Shown here: piece after piece, positions 33,998 to 46,044 of the stretch
Numbering within the stretch: position 1 is the stretch's first letter
Layout: each line of letters begins with the position of its first letter
Assembly: GCA_028277745.1 (NCBI GenBank)
Contig: JANQFR010000009.1
Coordinates: 1 to 64,000, forward strand
Direction of reading: 5' to 3'
Length of the DNA stretch: 64,000 nt
Source: Phycisphaeraceae bacterium
Lineage (GTDB): Bacteria; Planctomycetota; Phycisphaerae; Phycisphaerales; Phycisphaeraceae
Program-made: the position numbers and the translations under genes
The notes under the pieces: generated by a model
The model's input: only the letters and a program-made list of their open reading frames with translations
Told to the model about the DNA's origin: nothing
The model's database searches: none

Positions 33998-34057
33998 CCC
34001 TGGGTCTCCTGCCCCAATCATGCCCCAGGAATCGAGAAATGCAAGTTTTTTAAAGCC

Positions 34058-34110
34058 ATAGCCGGCGTGCTACGCACGCCTGGCCCGGGGCCGCGTAGCG
34101 GCCCGGCTAT
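34058..34110. repeat. Family A repeat, copy 4 (reverse orientation)
   Basis: ATAGCCGG to CCGGCTAT contains the hairpins GGCGTGC-TAC-GCACGCC and GGGGCCGC-GTA-GCGGCCC in reverse order relative to copies 2 and 3. It sits between efp and the exported-protein gene. Confidence 0.8.
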
Positions 34111-34119
34111 CGGTGATCG

Positions 34120-34683
34120 CTACTCGCCGGTGACGCGGGAGAGGTACGAGCCGTCTTCGGTGGAGACGCGGACGACCTGGCCGTTGGCGATGAACGGCGG
34201 GACGCGGGTCTTGAGGCCGGTCTCGAGGGTGGCTTCCTTGAGCTGATTGGTCGCGGTGGCGCCCTTGATGCCCGGGGGGGTGTCGGTGACCTCGAGGTCG
34301 ACCGCCGCGGGCAGGTCGATGCTTACGACGTTGCCCTGGTAGACCAGCCCGACGACCGGGGTGTTGGGTTTGATGTAGAGCAGCGCGTCGCCCAGCACGT
34401 CTTCAGGGATAGTGGCCTGCTCGTAGGACTCACTGTCCATGAACACGGCGCCGGAGCCGTCGGAGTAGAGATACTCCATCTCGCGGCGGTCGAGGTTGAC
34501 CTGGTTGACGTCTTCGGAGGTGCGGAGGCGTTTTTCGACGTTCTGGCCGGTCTGGACGTTCTTGAGCTTGGCCTGGACGAACGCGGGGCCCTTGCCGGGC
34601 TTGACGTGCTCGGTCTTGGTGCAGATCCAGAGCTGGCCGTCGATGTCGAGGGCCATGCCGGGCTTGAGGTCGTTGGATTTCAT
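34120..34683 (-). CDS. efp: Translation elongation factor P
   Basis: The protein has 187 residues in three beta-barrel domains. The N-terminal KOW-like domain carries the tip KPGKGPAF with K31, the residue that is modified in other bacteria to act at the ribosomal P site on polyproline stalls. Domains II and III contain EYLYSDGSGAVFMDSESYEQ and DTPPGIKGATATNQLKEATLETG, close to the EF-P consensus. Genes for the modifying enzymes (epmA/epmB, earP) are not nearby. Many products in this window have Pro-rich stretches, which fits a need for EF-P. Confidence 0.95.
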   Translation of the reverse strand: MKSNDLKPGMALDIDGQLWICTKTEHVKPGKGPAFVQAKLKNVQTGQNVEKRLRTSEDVNQVNLDRREMEYLYSDGSGAVFMDSESYEQATIPEDVLGDALLYIKPNTPVVGLVYQGNVVSIDLPAAVDLEVTDTPPGIKGATATNQLKEATLETGLKTRVPPFIANGQVVRVSTEDGSYLSRVTGE

Positions 34684-35005
34684 GGGTCAAGCTCCGTGGT
34701 TTCGGGGGGCGGGGCGGAGATTGTGGCAGAGGCGCAGGGGTTATGCAACGCGCCGGGCTCAGGCCCCTTGGGAGAAGGCCTTTATAAAGCCGGTCCTGAG
34801 CGAAGCGAAGGTCCGGATGGACAGTTGGAGAGGGTCGGTATCCGGGCCTTCGCTTCGCTCCGGTCCAGCTTTGGCTCCATGCCTCAGAAAAAAACGGGAG
34901 CCGGTGTAACACGTGGGCGGGCTTGCCGTAACCACACGTAAGCCGTTGTGTTATCGGCTCAGGAGGGGCGTCATGGGTTTGGGACAAGAAGGGAGAGAAG
35001 GATAA
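34684..35005. other. Non-coding spacer with a large imperfect hairpin
   Basis: This 322-bp gap lies between efp and the first of three exported paralogues. Its main feature is the inverted pair at 34786-34818 and 34840-34872. A GAAGGGAGAGAAGGAT ribosome site closes it before ATG 35006. I see no gene or known RNA. Confidence 0.6.
34786..34872. repeat. Inverted pair of family C-like units (33-bp arms)
   Basis: The left arm reads AAAGCCGGTCCTGAGCGAAG, then CGAAGGTCCGGAT. The right arm is its near-complement, starting ATCCGGGCCTTCGCTTCGCT and ending TTT. There are only a few mismatches and a 21-base loop. The arms can form a long stem or act as a two-way terminator between efp and the exported-protein cluster. 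Confidence 0.75.
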
Positions 35006-35668
35006 ATGACGATGCGACAAACGCTTTCGGCCGCTGTGATCGGCTTGGCCGCCTTGACGGGTCTCACGGCCCACGCCGCCACCGTCTACAGCAACCTGTC
35101 GGGCACGGGGACGTACACCGGCTTCTCAGCGATCTCCATCCGCGGGGCGAATGTGCCCCCTAACTCGCTCAGAGCGGCGGTGTCATTCACCCCGGCCCAG
35201 AACTACACGCTCGACTCCATCGAACTGGGGGTGTCCAGCGATACGAACTTTACCGACAACCTGACGGTGACCTTGGCGGCGAGCGACTCGGGCCTGCCGG
35301 GGGCGGGGATCGAAACATTCGGTGTCCTCAGCGGGTTCCCCGAATTCAACACATCCGACTCGTTCCTGGCGACCGCAACGTCCGCCGCCAACCCTTTGCT
35401 GCAGGCGGGCGTCGAGTACTTCGTGATTCTCGAAGCAGCCGACCCCGACTCAAAGATCAAGTGGCACAACAACAATCAAGGGGCAACGGGACGTTTCCTC
35501 CAGAGCGGCGGAGGCGCATTTTGGACGACGGCCCCGGGCAGCCCAGAATTTGTGTTCCGCGTGAACGGGACCGCCGTCATCGTGCCCACCCCCACCGCCG
35601 TGGCCGCCGGCGCCGCCCTGCTGGGGCTGCTCGGCCTCACGCGGGTTCGCCGCCGTCCATCGGCGTGA
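35006..35668 (+). CDS. Exported choice-of-anchor-R-type protein with VPTP sorting tail, paralogue 1
   Basis: The protein has 220 residues with a signal peptide ending AHA. A beta-sandwich domain follows: ATVYSNLSGTGTY, then YTLDSIELGVSS, LAASDSGLPGAGIETFGVLSG, AGVEYFVILEAADPDSKIKW and FVFRVNGT. It resembles choice-of-anchor R domains, which occur with several sorting tails. The C-terminus is VPTP, a hydrophobic run (AVAAGAALLGLLGL) and VRRRPSA, a PEP-CTERM-like signal. It is first of three tandem copies (35006, 35795, 36562), each with its own ribosome site, and is probably a surface or matrix protein. Confidence 0.8.
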   Translation: MTMRQTLSAAVIGLAALTGLTAHAATVYSNLSGTGTYTGFSAISIRGANVPPNSLRAAVSFTPAQNYTLDSIELGVSSDTNFTDNLTVTLAASDSGLPGAGIETFGVLSGFPEFNTSDSFLATATSAANPLLQAGVEYFVILEAADPDSKIKWHNNNQGATGRFLQSGGGAFWTTAPGSPEFVFRVNGTAVIVPTPTAVAAGAALLGLLGLTRVRRRPSA

Positions 35669-35794
35669 AGCCGCAACGCCTCACCACTCAAGCAAAAAAC
35701 AATGCGGTTTGATGAACGCGCACCTCACTGCGGATGGATTCATTCAACCTTGCCTCACGCGTTTTAATCCACAAAGGGAAGAAAGAGACTCATC

Positions 35795-36445
35795 ATGACC
35801 AAGCAACACACCTTCTCAATCGTCGCCATCGGCCTGGCCATCGTCGTCGGTGGATCGGCCCCCGCGGCCACCGTCTACAGCAACCTGTCGGGCACGGATA
35901 CCTACAACGCCTTTTCCGGAAACACCGTCCGGGGAGCCAATCAGCCTTTCCCGTACTCATATGCCGTGTCGTTCACGCCGGGCGGCCACTACACGCTCGA
36001 CTCCATCGAGCTGGGGCTGTCCAAAGAGAGCGGCGGCTTCCCCGATGACGTGATCGTCACGCTGGCGGCCAGCGACTCGGGCCTGCCGGGGGCGACGATC
36101 GAGTCGTTTGGCGTGTTCAGCGGCTTCCCCGAGTTCGGCACGTCCGACTCGTTCCTGGCCACCGCGGTCTCGGCCGCCAACCCGCTGCTCCTGGCGGGCG
36201 TCGAGTACTTCGTGGTCGTCGACGCGGCCGACCCCGATACCAGCGCGGTGTGGAACCATAACCTTCAGGGAGCCCTGGGGCGCTTTTTCGAGGTGGCCCC
36301 GGACGTATGGCTGGAAAACCCCAACGCACAGCACGCGCTGCGTGTGAACGGGACCCGGACCATCGTGCCCACCCCCTCAGCCGCGGCCACCGGAGCCGCC
36401 CTGCTGGGGCTGCTCGGCCTGAGCCGGAGGCGCAGACCGGCGTGA
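35795..36445 (+). CDS. Exported choice-of-anchor-R-type protein with VPTP tail, paralogue 2
   Basis: The protein has 216 residues and is collinear with the flanking paralogues. It has a signal peptide, ATVYSNLSGTDTY, YTLDSIELGLS, LAASDSGLPGATIESFGVFSGFPEFGTSDSFL (split by the same spacing), AGVEYFVVVDAADPDTSAVW and LRVNGT. The tail is VPTPSAAATGAALLGLLGL plus SRRRRPA. The exposed loops (for example GGFPDDVIV and VAPDVWLENPN) differ from copy 1, while framework strands are almost unchanged. This is the pattern expected of a surface family diversifying at its loops. Confidence 0.8.
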   Translation: MTKQHTFSIVAIGLAIVVGGSAPAATVYSNLSGTDTYNAFSGNTVRGANQPFPYSYAVSFTPGGHYTLDSIELGLSKESGGFPDDVIVTLAASDSGLPGATIESFGVFSGFPEFGTSDSFLATAVSAANPLLLAGVEYFVVVDAADPDTSAVWNHNLQGALGRFFEVAPDVWLENPNAQHALRVNGTRTIVPTPSAAATGAALLGLLGLSRRRRPA

Positions 36446-36561
36446 CCCGCCCCGCCGCAACATCGTTTTTCGACAAACCTCGGATACATGGATGAGTCCG
36501 CGTGGGGCTCAGTCGAGGCCGGGGGCGCTTTACCGTTTTGATGCAACCAAGGAGAAAGAAA

Positions 36562-37224
36562 ATGAAGACCATGCAATTTATGTTCTCGGCCATGGCGCTG
36601 GGCTTGGCGGTCCTGGCGGGCCCCGCGGCCCACGCCGCCACGATCTACAGCAACCTGTCGGGCGCCGACACCTATCTCGGCAACACCTCCGTCATCTTTC
36701 GGGGCCCCAACGTCCTGCCCTTCGAGGGCAGGTACGCCGTGTCGTTCACGCCAGGCAATAACTACACGCTCGACTCCGTCGAGGTGGGGCTGTCCAGCCT
36801 GCAGGGTTGGGCCGATGACGCGGAGATCGCGCTGGCGGCCAGCGACTCGGGCCTGCCGGGGACGGTGATCGAGTCGCTGGGCGTCTTCAGCGGCTTCCCG
36901 GAGTTCGGCACGTCCGACTCGTTCCTGGTGACCGCCAACTCGGCCGCCAACCCGCTGCTGCAGGCGGGCGTCGAATACTTCATCGTCGTCTCCGCGGGCG
37001 ACCCCGACGCCTACGCGTACTGGAACCTCAACAATCAAGGGGTACACGGTATTTTTCACCAGGAAGACGGCGGGGTATGGCAGGAATTCGCCGGCACCAT
37101 CCAGCCCACGCTCCGCGTGAACGGGACCATCGTGCCCACGCCCACCGCCGCGGCCATGGGCGGCGTCCTGCTGGGGCTGTTCAGCCTCGCACGGACCCGG
37201 CGGCGCGGGGCCCAAGGCGGCTGA
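36562..37224 (+). CDS. Exported choice-of-anchor-R-type protein with VPTP tail, paralogue 3
   Basis: The protein has 220 residues from ATG 36562, after an AAGGAGAAAG ribosome site; the frame is open further upstream without homology. It shares signal peptide, ATIYSNLSGADTY, YTLDSVEVGLSS, LAASDSGLPGTVIESLGVFSG, AGVEYFIVVSAGDPDAYAYW and LRVNGT with the other two. Its tail VPTPTAAAMGGVLLGLFSLARTRRRG is the most diverged, with extra residues after the Arg cluster. A hairpin terminator follows at 37265. Confidence 0.8.
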   Translation: MKTMQFMFSAMALGLAVLAGPAAHAATIYSNLSGADTYLGNTSVIFRGPNVLPFEGRYAVSFTPGNNYTLDSVEVGLSSLQGWADDAEIALAASDSGLPGTVIESLGVFSGFPEFGTSDSFLVTANSAANPLLQAGVEYFIVVSAGDPDAYAYWNLNNQGVHGIFHQEDGGVWQEFAGTIQPTLRVNGTIVPTPTAAAMGGVLLGLFSLARTRRRGAQGG

Positions 37225-37264
37225 AACATTTTCACAGATCCGGCGCCAACCCCGACACACCACC

Positions 37265-37294
37265 GAAGCCCAGGGACCGCGGTCCCTGGGCTTC
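37265..37294 (+). terminator. Hairpin after the exported-paralogue cluster
   Basis: GAAGCCCAGGGACC-GC-GGTCCCTGGGCTTC is a 14-bp perfect stem followed by CTTCAT. It ends the cluster 41 bp after the last stop and 85 bp before the ABC-transporter start. Confidence 0.7.
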
Positions 37295-37378
37295 CTTCAT
37301 ATTCAGACGCCAGCAATATGTTTGACGCCGGCGCTTGGCCTAAGCCTCTTGGACGCCCCCGTTGATACACTGCCCTTC

Positions 37379-38136
<758 letters not shown>

Positions 38137-44979: not shown

Positions 44980-46044
44980 ATGTGGTTTAAGCAGTACCCG
45001 ATCTTTGCGCTCGGCGTAAGTTGTTTACTGACGCTCGGCGTCTCCGCCGAGACGAATAAACTCATTACGTTCGAGTCCCTGGACGTTGGCGAGCCGGTCG
45101 ACCGCACGGTCGACGGCGTCTCCGTGGCCAGTCACCACAACGGTCACCGCAAGATCGTCGTGTTCGACACCGCGGCGCGGGAGACCGATCGGCCGAGCCT
45201 CGAAGGCCCCAACGGCGTCGACGGACGCGTGTGGGCCATGGGCAACCTGCTCATGGACAAGCAGGTCGGTCAGGTGCTCACGCTCGAAGAGCCTTCCGCC
45301 GAGGGCGGGGCCGTCAGCGTCGAGTTCCCGAACCCCGCGGTGTCGCTCAGCCTCGACCTGCTCGACGTGCAGGACGCCGGCGACGGCTACATCCAGTTCT
45401 ACAAGGACGGCGACGAGGTCGGCGTGGTCCGCTTCTCCGATCTGGTCAACCCCGATTCGCTGTTCTACGACCCGACCATCGAATTCGGCGCCAACTCCGC
45501 CAACCGCGTCCAGCCGATCTATGCCGACCTGCTGGGGGTGGACGAGTTCCACAGCATCGTGATCCATCTCGCCAATTCCGCGGCGATCGACAACCTTGAA
45601 TACGACACGCCTCCCAGCCTCGCGATCTTCGCCTTCGAGCAACTGCTGGAGCCCAACGGCTACGACGGGGGCTTCGGCAGCGGCGGTTCGTCAGGCGGCG
45701 TCAGCGGCGGCGGGCCGACCTCCCTGTTTGCGGTCCTGGCCGGCAGCGGGGGTGGGGGCGGCGGCGGAGGTGGCGGCGGCGGCGGAGTGGCCCCGCCCGA
45801 CAGCAGCGACGACCCCACGAACAACGTGTTCCGCGACCCGCAGCTTCCGACGTTCGATGAGCCGGTCGACGAGGACGACCCCAAGGACGATCCTGAAAAC
45901 GATCCTCCCGATGAAGAGACGCCGCGCGACGACGGCCCGGACGGCGGCCCCGAGCTGACGCTCGTGCCAACCCCGTCGGCGGTGCTGGGCGGCTTCGCCC
46001 TGCTCGGCATCCTCGGCCTGCGTCGGCGCCGGCGTCAGGCGTGA
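44980..46044 (+). CDS. Exported Gly/Asp-rich protein with VPTP sorting tail
   Basis: The protein has 354 residues with a signal peptide (FALGVSCLLTLGVSAE). The N-terminal domain is beta-rich (about 25-215: ITFESLDVGEPVD, VSVEFPNPAVSLSLDLLDVQDAGDGYIQFY, EFHSIVIHLANSAAIDNLEY), with a jelly-roll look. A poly-Gly stretch (a run of 13 glycines near residue 270) and an Asp/Pro/Glu-rich linker lead to the tail VPTPSAVLGGFALLGILGL plus RRRRRQA. The flexible linker would hold the folded domain away from the membrane or matrix. A GGAGAGAG site precedes ATG 44980. A terminator follows. Confidence 0.75.
   Translation: MWFKQYPIFALGVSCLLTLGVSAETNKLITFESLDVGEPVDRTVDGVSVASHHNGHRKIVVFDTAARETDRPSLEGPNGVDGRVWAMGNLLMDKQVGQVLTLEEPSAEGGAVSVEFPNPAVSLSLDLLDVQDAGDGYIQFYKDGDEVGVVRFSDLVNPDSLFYDPTIEFGANSANRVQPIYADLLGVDEFHSIVIHLANSAAIDNLEYDTPPSLAIFAFEQLLEPNGYDGGFGSGGSSGGVSGGGPTSLFAVLAGSGGGGGGGGGGGGGVAPPDSSDDPTNNVFRDPQLPTFDEPVDEDDPKDDPENDPPDEETPRDDGPDGGPELTLVPTPSAVLGGFALLGILGLRRRRRQA

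Follow-up and report, generated by a model that had tools for sequence, protein, structure and literature searches.

Three tandem choice-of-anchor R genes with a VPTP-type C-terminal tail in a Phycisphaeraceae genome: probable exosortase substrates

Three adjacent genes of a Phycisphaeraceae bacterium (g1, g2 and g3; Table 1) are probably an ordinary tandem family of exosortase-tagged exported proteins. They lie in the window, by which we mean the whole analysed stretch of 64,000 nucleotides from contig JANQFR010000009.1, part of a metagenome-assembled Phycisphaerae genome. An earlier note, made from the DNA letters, had described a triplicated surface protein whose diverging loops might serve in phage evasion; the most informative feature of the trio is one absent from that note, the C-terminal tail. 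On the reading we consider likely, the three are tandem-expanded exosortase (PEP-CTERM-like) substrates: exported, cut at the tail by an exosortase, and passed on to the envelope or the exopolysaccharide matrix, the copies having diverged from one another. This would make the trio a clear added example of tandem growth among planctomycete exosortase-type substrates.

Table 1. Positions in the window of the trio and of features within and beside it.
Feature	Position	Strand	Basis
g1, choice-of-anchor R protein, 220 aa, IVPTPTA tail	35006..35668	+	ORF; NF041539 51.7 bits vs cut-off 30
Signal-peptide-like N-terminus of g1, 25 residues	35006..35080	+	by eye from alignment
C-terminal sorting-type tail of g1	35579..35665	+	tail-model match 35579-35659 (training row); alignment
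g2, choice-of-anchor R protein, 216 aa, IVPTPSA tail	35795..36445	+	ORF; NF041539 42.5 bits
Low-synonymous-divergence stretch, g2 side, possible gene-conversion tract	35993..36235	+	columns 69-149; coordinates hand-converted
C-terminal sorting-type tail of g2	36362..36442	+	tail-model match 36362-36439 (training row)
g3, choice-of-anchor R protein, 220 aa, IVPTPTA tail	36562..37224	+	NF041539 46.6 bits
Low-synonymous-divergence stretch, g3 side, possible gene-conversion tract	36766..37005	+	columns 69-149
C-terminal sorting-type tail of g3	37129..37221	+	tail-model match 37129-37206 (training row)
Hairpin 3' of g3, possible terminator	37265..37294	+	13 bp stem, z -4.46

The collinear paralogues that the earlier note placed at 35006, 35795 and 36562 are indeed same-strand ORFs, and their products are 59-63% identical (BLASTP: g1-g2 63%, g1-g3 59%, g2-g3 61%). 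With E values of 4e-70 or lower, the likeness is not a matter of chance, and tandem duplication of the gene is supported. For g3, the ATG at 36562 was preferred over the listed GTG at 36502 because a clear AAGGAG precedes it. All three proteins exceed the curated NCBIfam cut-off for the choice-of-anchor R family (NF041539); none has a match in Pfam. Conserved blocks alternate with variable stretches along the alignment, as had been claimed, the most variable columns past the signal-peptide region being 39-58, 79-91 and 151-186. Two of the proposed framework motifs, LAASDSGLPG and AGVEYF, occur in all three proteins, but YTLDSIELG is found only in g1 and g2, g3 reading YTLDSVEVG. The assignment of blocks to "strands" and variable stretches to "loops" finds no support: an AlphaFold2 model from the three-row alignment is unusable (mean pLDDT 32), and a profile search found no solved relatives (best E 0.078).

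The gaps between the genes are 126 and 116 nt long and have no obvious common upstream sequence. A purine-rich ribosome site can be seen by eye ahead of each gene, in agreement with the separate sites described before. The single shared terminator suggested for the trio is plausible, in that a strong hairpin follows g3 while both gaps fold no better than shuffles, but the terminator scan of 34650-37450 as a whole yielded 2 sites against 2.5 expected from shuffles, the second being within g2 (36263-36280). The genes may be transcribed together. One possibility is that the array exists mainly for dosage, the three copies raising the amount of a single structural matrix protein, with their divergence reflecting relaxed constraint. 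The fairly high dN/dS within the trio (see below), the retention of the conserved blocks and the position of the only strong hairpin at the trio's end would all fit; about 40% of residues differ between copies, however, and the gaps could hold separate control. We think dosage an unlikely explanation, and return to the probable family of exosortase substrates.

Export of the trio is probable, and had been proposed before; it is suggested by the N-termini, the tails and the presence of exosortases in the genome. The signal-peptide-like N-termini, judged by eye from the alignment, begin in g2 and g3 at 35795 and 36562, and an AxA-like end lies near residue 25 (also by eye only). At the other end, each protein carries IVPTP(T/S)A, then a hydrophobic stretch, then arginines; as in PEP-CTERM-type signals, a predicted hydrophobic helix is thus followed by a C-terminal basic cluster, and the very-low-confidence structure model likewise puts a putative helix at residues 196-212. 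Nine further proteins encoded in this genome have tails of the same type, related pairs (by eye) included, and P-T-P-x-A is invariant or nearly so in the resulting 12. A tail model was made from the 12 sequences; at E<=0.01 it matches the genome 13 times, and 12 of these matches, those of the trio among them, are its own training rows. Homologues of the trio in other genomes end in either PEP or VPTP versions of the tail.

Two further occurrences of the tail may be recorded here. Within the window, positions 44980-46044 encode another VPTPSA-tailed protein, of 354 aa, with no NCBIfam match at E<=0.01. Two more VPTPTA-tailed proteins, seemingly related by eye, form another adjacent pair on contig C99 (~108.3-109.9 kb; positions 15-644 and 925-1599 of locus L004).

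No trio tail matches the PEP-CTERM model TIGR02595 (cut-off 16), and the motif reads PTP in place of PEP; two other tails of the genome score 15.4 and 17.6. The three trio tails also have no match to PTPA-CTERM (NF033465, cut-off 29 bits), under which two other tails reach 6.5 and 18.5 bits. Alternatively, the tail may simply anchor the protein in the membrane by its C-terminus, or be the substrate of another type of enzyme, with no exosortase processing. Besides the scores just given, this alternative can draw on two tails that, taken in isolation, exceed the cut-off of an LPXTG or MYXO-type model: g1 scores 17.0 under the LPXTG-anchor model (cut-off 15.9; g2 15.1), and g2 just passes TIGR03382 at 16.0 (cut-off 15.85) while reaching 19.8 under TIGR03901, for which the cut-off is 20 and g1 and g3 reach 18.4 and 13.6. 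None of the full-length proteins passes an LPXTG or MYXO-CTERM cut-off, however. The LPXTG scores of full-length g1 and g2 are 11.2 and 11.8, and the genome has no sortase (PF04203) at E<=1 in a search that was positive in 5 of 14 control genomes, so that the trio does not qualify as sortase substrates. Also against the plain anchor or other enzyme are the near-invariance of P-T-P-x-A across the genome's tails, the PEP versions borne by homologues, the presence of exosortases in all 51 family genomes and the co-occurrence of the tail with one exosortase clade described below. We regard that alternative as improbable, and processing by an exosortase as the better reading of the tail.

Three exosortases score above the Pfam cut-off in this genome, and all keep the C-x-G, N-x-x-R and H-x-x-x-G motifs described by Haft et al. 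(2006; PMC1569441). One of them, L018 (contig C57), is nearest XrtA, with 118 against the XrtA cut-off of 208; another, L017, is nearest XrtD/XrtW, and both fall under the cut-offs of the named exosortases. Among the genomes of the family, 51 of 51 have an exosortase, and the tail model finds a match in 28 of 51 at E<=0.01. An exosortase tree of 108 rows (from 114 matches, after exclusion of three partial and three long-branch sequences, L019, L284 and L285; genome G013 has no row in the final tree) resolves three groups: one of 42 rows containing L018 (support 100/98), one of 45 rows containing L017 (100/99) and a third of 21 rows (100/100). The L018, or XrtA-like, group is present in 20/20 genomes with a best tail match of E<=1e-4 and in 12/30 others (p 8e-6). 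Counted by genus, the figures are 11/11 and 10/21 (p 0.0045), this being the only correction for kinship. The L017 group shows no difference (17/20 and 27/30), and the third group is rarer with the tail (2/20 against 19/30). At the looser threshold of E<=0.01, the L018 group is found in 24/28 tail genomes and 8/22 others, four genomes with weak tail matches lacking the XrtA-like clade. An alternative FastTree tree has weaker clades and places some rows otherwise, and its XrtA-like remainder gives 20/20 and 15/30.

The tail thus co-occurs with the XrtA-like exosortase clade. We treat this as a lead, since the idea arose after the same lists had been inspected by eye and kinship was allowed for only roughly; the threshold was also of our choosing, and the tail model came from this genome's own tails. 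A more specific proposal, which we put forward tentatively as possible but rather doubtful, is that VPTPTA-CTERM is a separate sorting signal with its own XrtA-like exosortase, operating alongside a second lane of PEP type within one cell; the trio would be specialised substrates of the first lane, their core partly homogenised by gene conversion while exposed stretches diverge. If the pairing of tail and enzyme holds, it would offer a testable rule for which enzyme sorts which proteins in genomes with several exosortases.

The likely course of events for an exosortase-processed trio can be sketched as follows. Each protein would leave the cytoplasm by way of its N-terminal signal peptide, and its VPTPTA tail would retain it in the inner membrane. 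There an exosortase, for which the XrtA-like L018 is the likeliest candidate, would cleave at the PTP motif or close to it, and the folded domain would then be handed on to the envelope or the exopolysaccharide matrix. The copies would have been born by tandem duplication, g2 and g3 perhaps swapping a central tract, and then have diverged, so that one cell would display three related surfaces; the copies may have specialised. A role in the matrix would be consistent, by analogy only, with the Aquincola PEP-CTERM protein that takes part in floc formation (PMC9850573).

Like PEP-CTERM substrates (TIGR02595, PF07589), the trio proteins combine a predicted exported N-terminus with a proline motif, a hydrophobic stretch and a basic cluster, and like PEP-CTERM genomes this one has several tailed proteins together with exosortases. 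They differ in reading PTP where those substrates have PEP, in falling short of TIGR02595, and in their tandem layout: most PEP-CTERM genes are single-gene operons according to Haft et al. (PMC1569441). PTPA-CTERM (NF033465), VPLPA-CTERM/XrtD and XrtA systems share with the trio a short proline-containing motif ahead of the helix, but the trio tails do not match the first, and L018 and L017, while nearest XrtA and XrtD/XrtW, remain below the cut-offs of the named exosortases. To NF041539 proteins in general the trio is alike in scoring over the family cut-off, and homologues end in PEP- or VPTP-type tails; it differs in its distance from the nearest outside relatives (about 35% identity) and in number. 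At E<=1e-5, choice-of-anchor R has matches in 70 of 397 genomes of the class, and 56 of these 70 have a single one, whereas five are present here, the tandem trio among them. A literature search found nothing on choice-of-anchor R, nor on choice-of-anchor together with PEP-CTERM.

A lineage-specific tandem expansion is the best explanation for the trio. To the nearest outside relatives, identity over the domain is about 35% by BLASTP (38% at most in a multiple alignment), and at E<=1e-6 relatives occur in 3 of the 51 family genomes, this one included, the other two holding one each; many of the other 50 genomes are incomplete, and the 51 include no other genome of the same genus. In G229, the single copy lies at ~3.087 Mb beside an apparent ruvB (by eye), and efp, the neighbor of the trio here, lies at 78 kb; this distance and the low outside identity were both counted in favor of lineage-specific expansion. 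A search for loci related to the trio as a whole found none. Neighborhoods of efp were also compared, using the best 80 of 530 loci from an EF-P search (mostly Phycisphaerae or other Planctomycetota) and 29 more: an ORF matching the trio profile was present in 0 of these 109, which is weak evidence, as some loci come from the same genomes and many are short on the trio side. With g2 as the query, there was no match among PLSDB plasmids.

The copies are old: pairwise dS within the trio is 0.45-0.61, with gene-wide dN/dS of 0.48-0.65. Among the segments compared, columns 61-150 have the smallest dN and columns 151-187 the largest. The highest dN/dS among five segments is 0.99, for g2/g3 in columns 61-150, and one 30-codon window of the same pair has pN 0.29 and pS 0.06 (no significance test). 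Diversifying selection (dN/dS >1) was not found gene-wide or in the five segments, for which three sequences give little power.

Evidence for gene conversion among the copies is mixed. A synonymous-site scan of g2/g3 has a low stretch in columns 69-149, with 9.0 differences over 64.7 sites where the proportion for the whole is 0.34, and is significant for this pair (family-wise p values across the three pairs are 0.124, 0.064 and, for g2/g3, 0.0175); the scan was run after the dip in divergence had been noticed. The longest identical tracts were reached by codon shuffles in 2/500 cases for g1/g2, 9/500 for g2/g3 and 108/500 for g1/g3, a control that ignores the clustering of conserved residues. 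These two results favor the recombination among copies suggested in the earlier note, but three other tests were not significant: a site-pattern scan (reached by 71/300 shuffles), a runs test (p 0.054) and an identical-residue codon scan (p 0.057, 0.097 and 0.11). Amino-acid differences are not lowered in the g2/g3 low-synonymous stretch. A conversion event with later divergence, selection acting locally, or chance might account for the stretch.

Among five tandem-looking regions inspected from the class-wide list, G107 (L286) has three adjacent choice-of-anchor R genes and G209 (L290) two, in different species of one genus, g133. Adjacent genes there are 66-72% identical (BLASTP) and have a PEP tail, unlike the trio, and similarity within the array suggests an origin separate from the trio's. 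The two genes of G209 are the counterparts of the second and third of G107 (83.6 and 94.5% identical), with orthologue dN/dS of 0.40 and 0.21, against 0.45-0.57 for the paralogues. The 1.5 kb upstream of the G209 pair does not match the G107 contig, and so the first copy is missing from that position; the comparison covers a single pair of draft genomes, of which G209 is 69% complete, and the absent copy could lie elsewhere. Copy number in g133 thus seems to change between species, with each copy keeping its identity. The other regions were a tandem pair in G413, 61% identical and without a sorting-type tail, a tandem pair in G165, 30% identical, and a single protein with two domains in G312.

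These comparisons bear on the proposal that the trio is a hypervariable surface-recognition or phage-evasion cassette, with recombining copies, diversifying exposed stretches and a copy number that varies among strains. The tandem layout, the variable stretches amid conserved blocks, the possible g2/g3 conversion tract with dN close to dS nearby and the change from three to two copies in the g133 array are what such a cassette might look like. Against it, dN/dS in the trio is below 1 gene-wide and the g133 orthologues are conserved, which by analogy only would argue against rapid loop variation in the trio. Phage evasion itself receives no positive support, and we consider a cassette of this kind quite improbable, retaining the exosortase-substrate family as the probable account.

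On one side the trio is flanked by efp; the other side has genes for a ProV-like ATPase and for a permease/binding-protein fusion, whose scores both lie below the curated cut-offs of their best models. No functional link with the trio is seen. EF-P of this genome is nearest those of Phycisphaerae (best identity 73%). Between efp and g1, positions 34786-34872 of the window hold a REPIN-like inverted repeat, whose core pattern (CTGAGCGAAGCGAAGG, a short gap, CGGA) is matched 21 times across the genome, as against 0 for a reversed control; five of these places are inverted pairs ~40-50 bp apart. The genome has one Y1-type transposase above the Pfam cut-off and two weaker matches below it. A GC-rich palindromic stretch lies 3' of efp at 34053-34113. 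When up to 2 mismatches are allowed, a 15-mer from this stretch matches the window at four places, a number reached in 1 of 100 shuffles.
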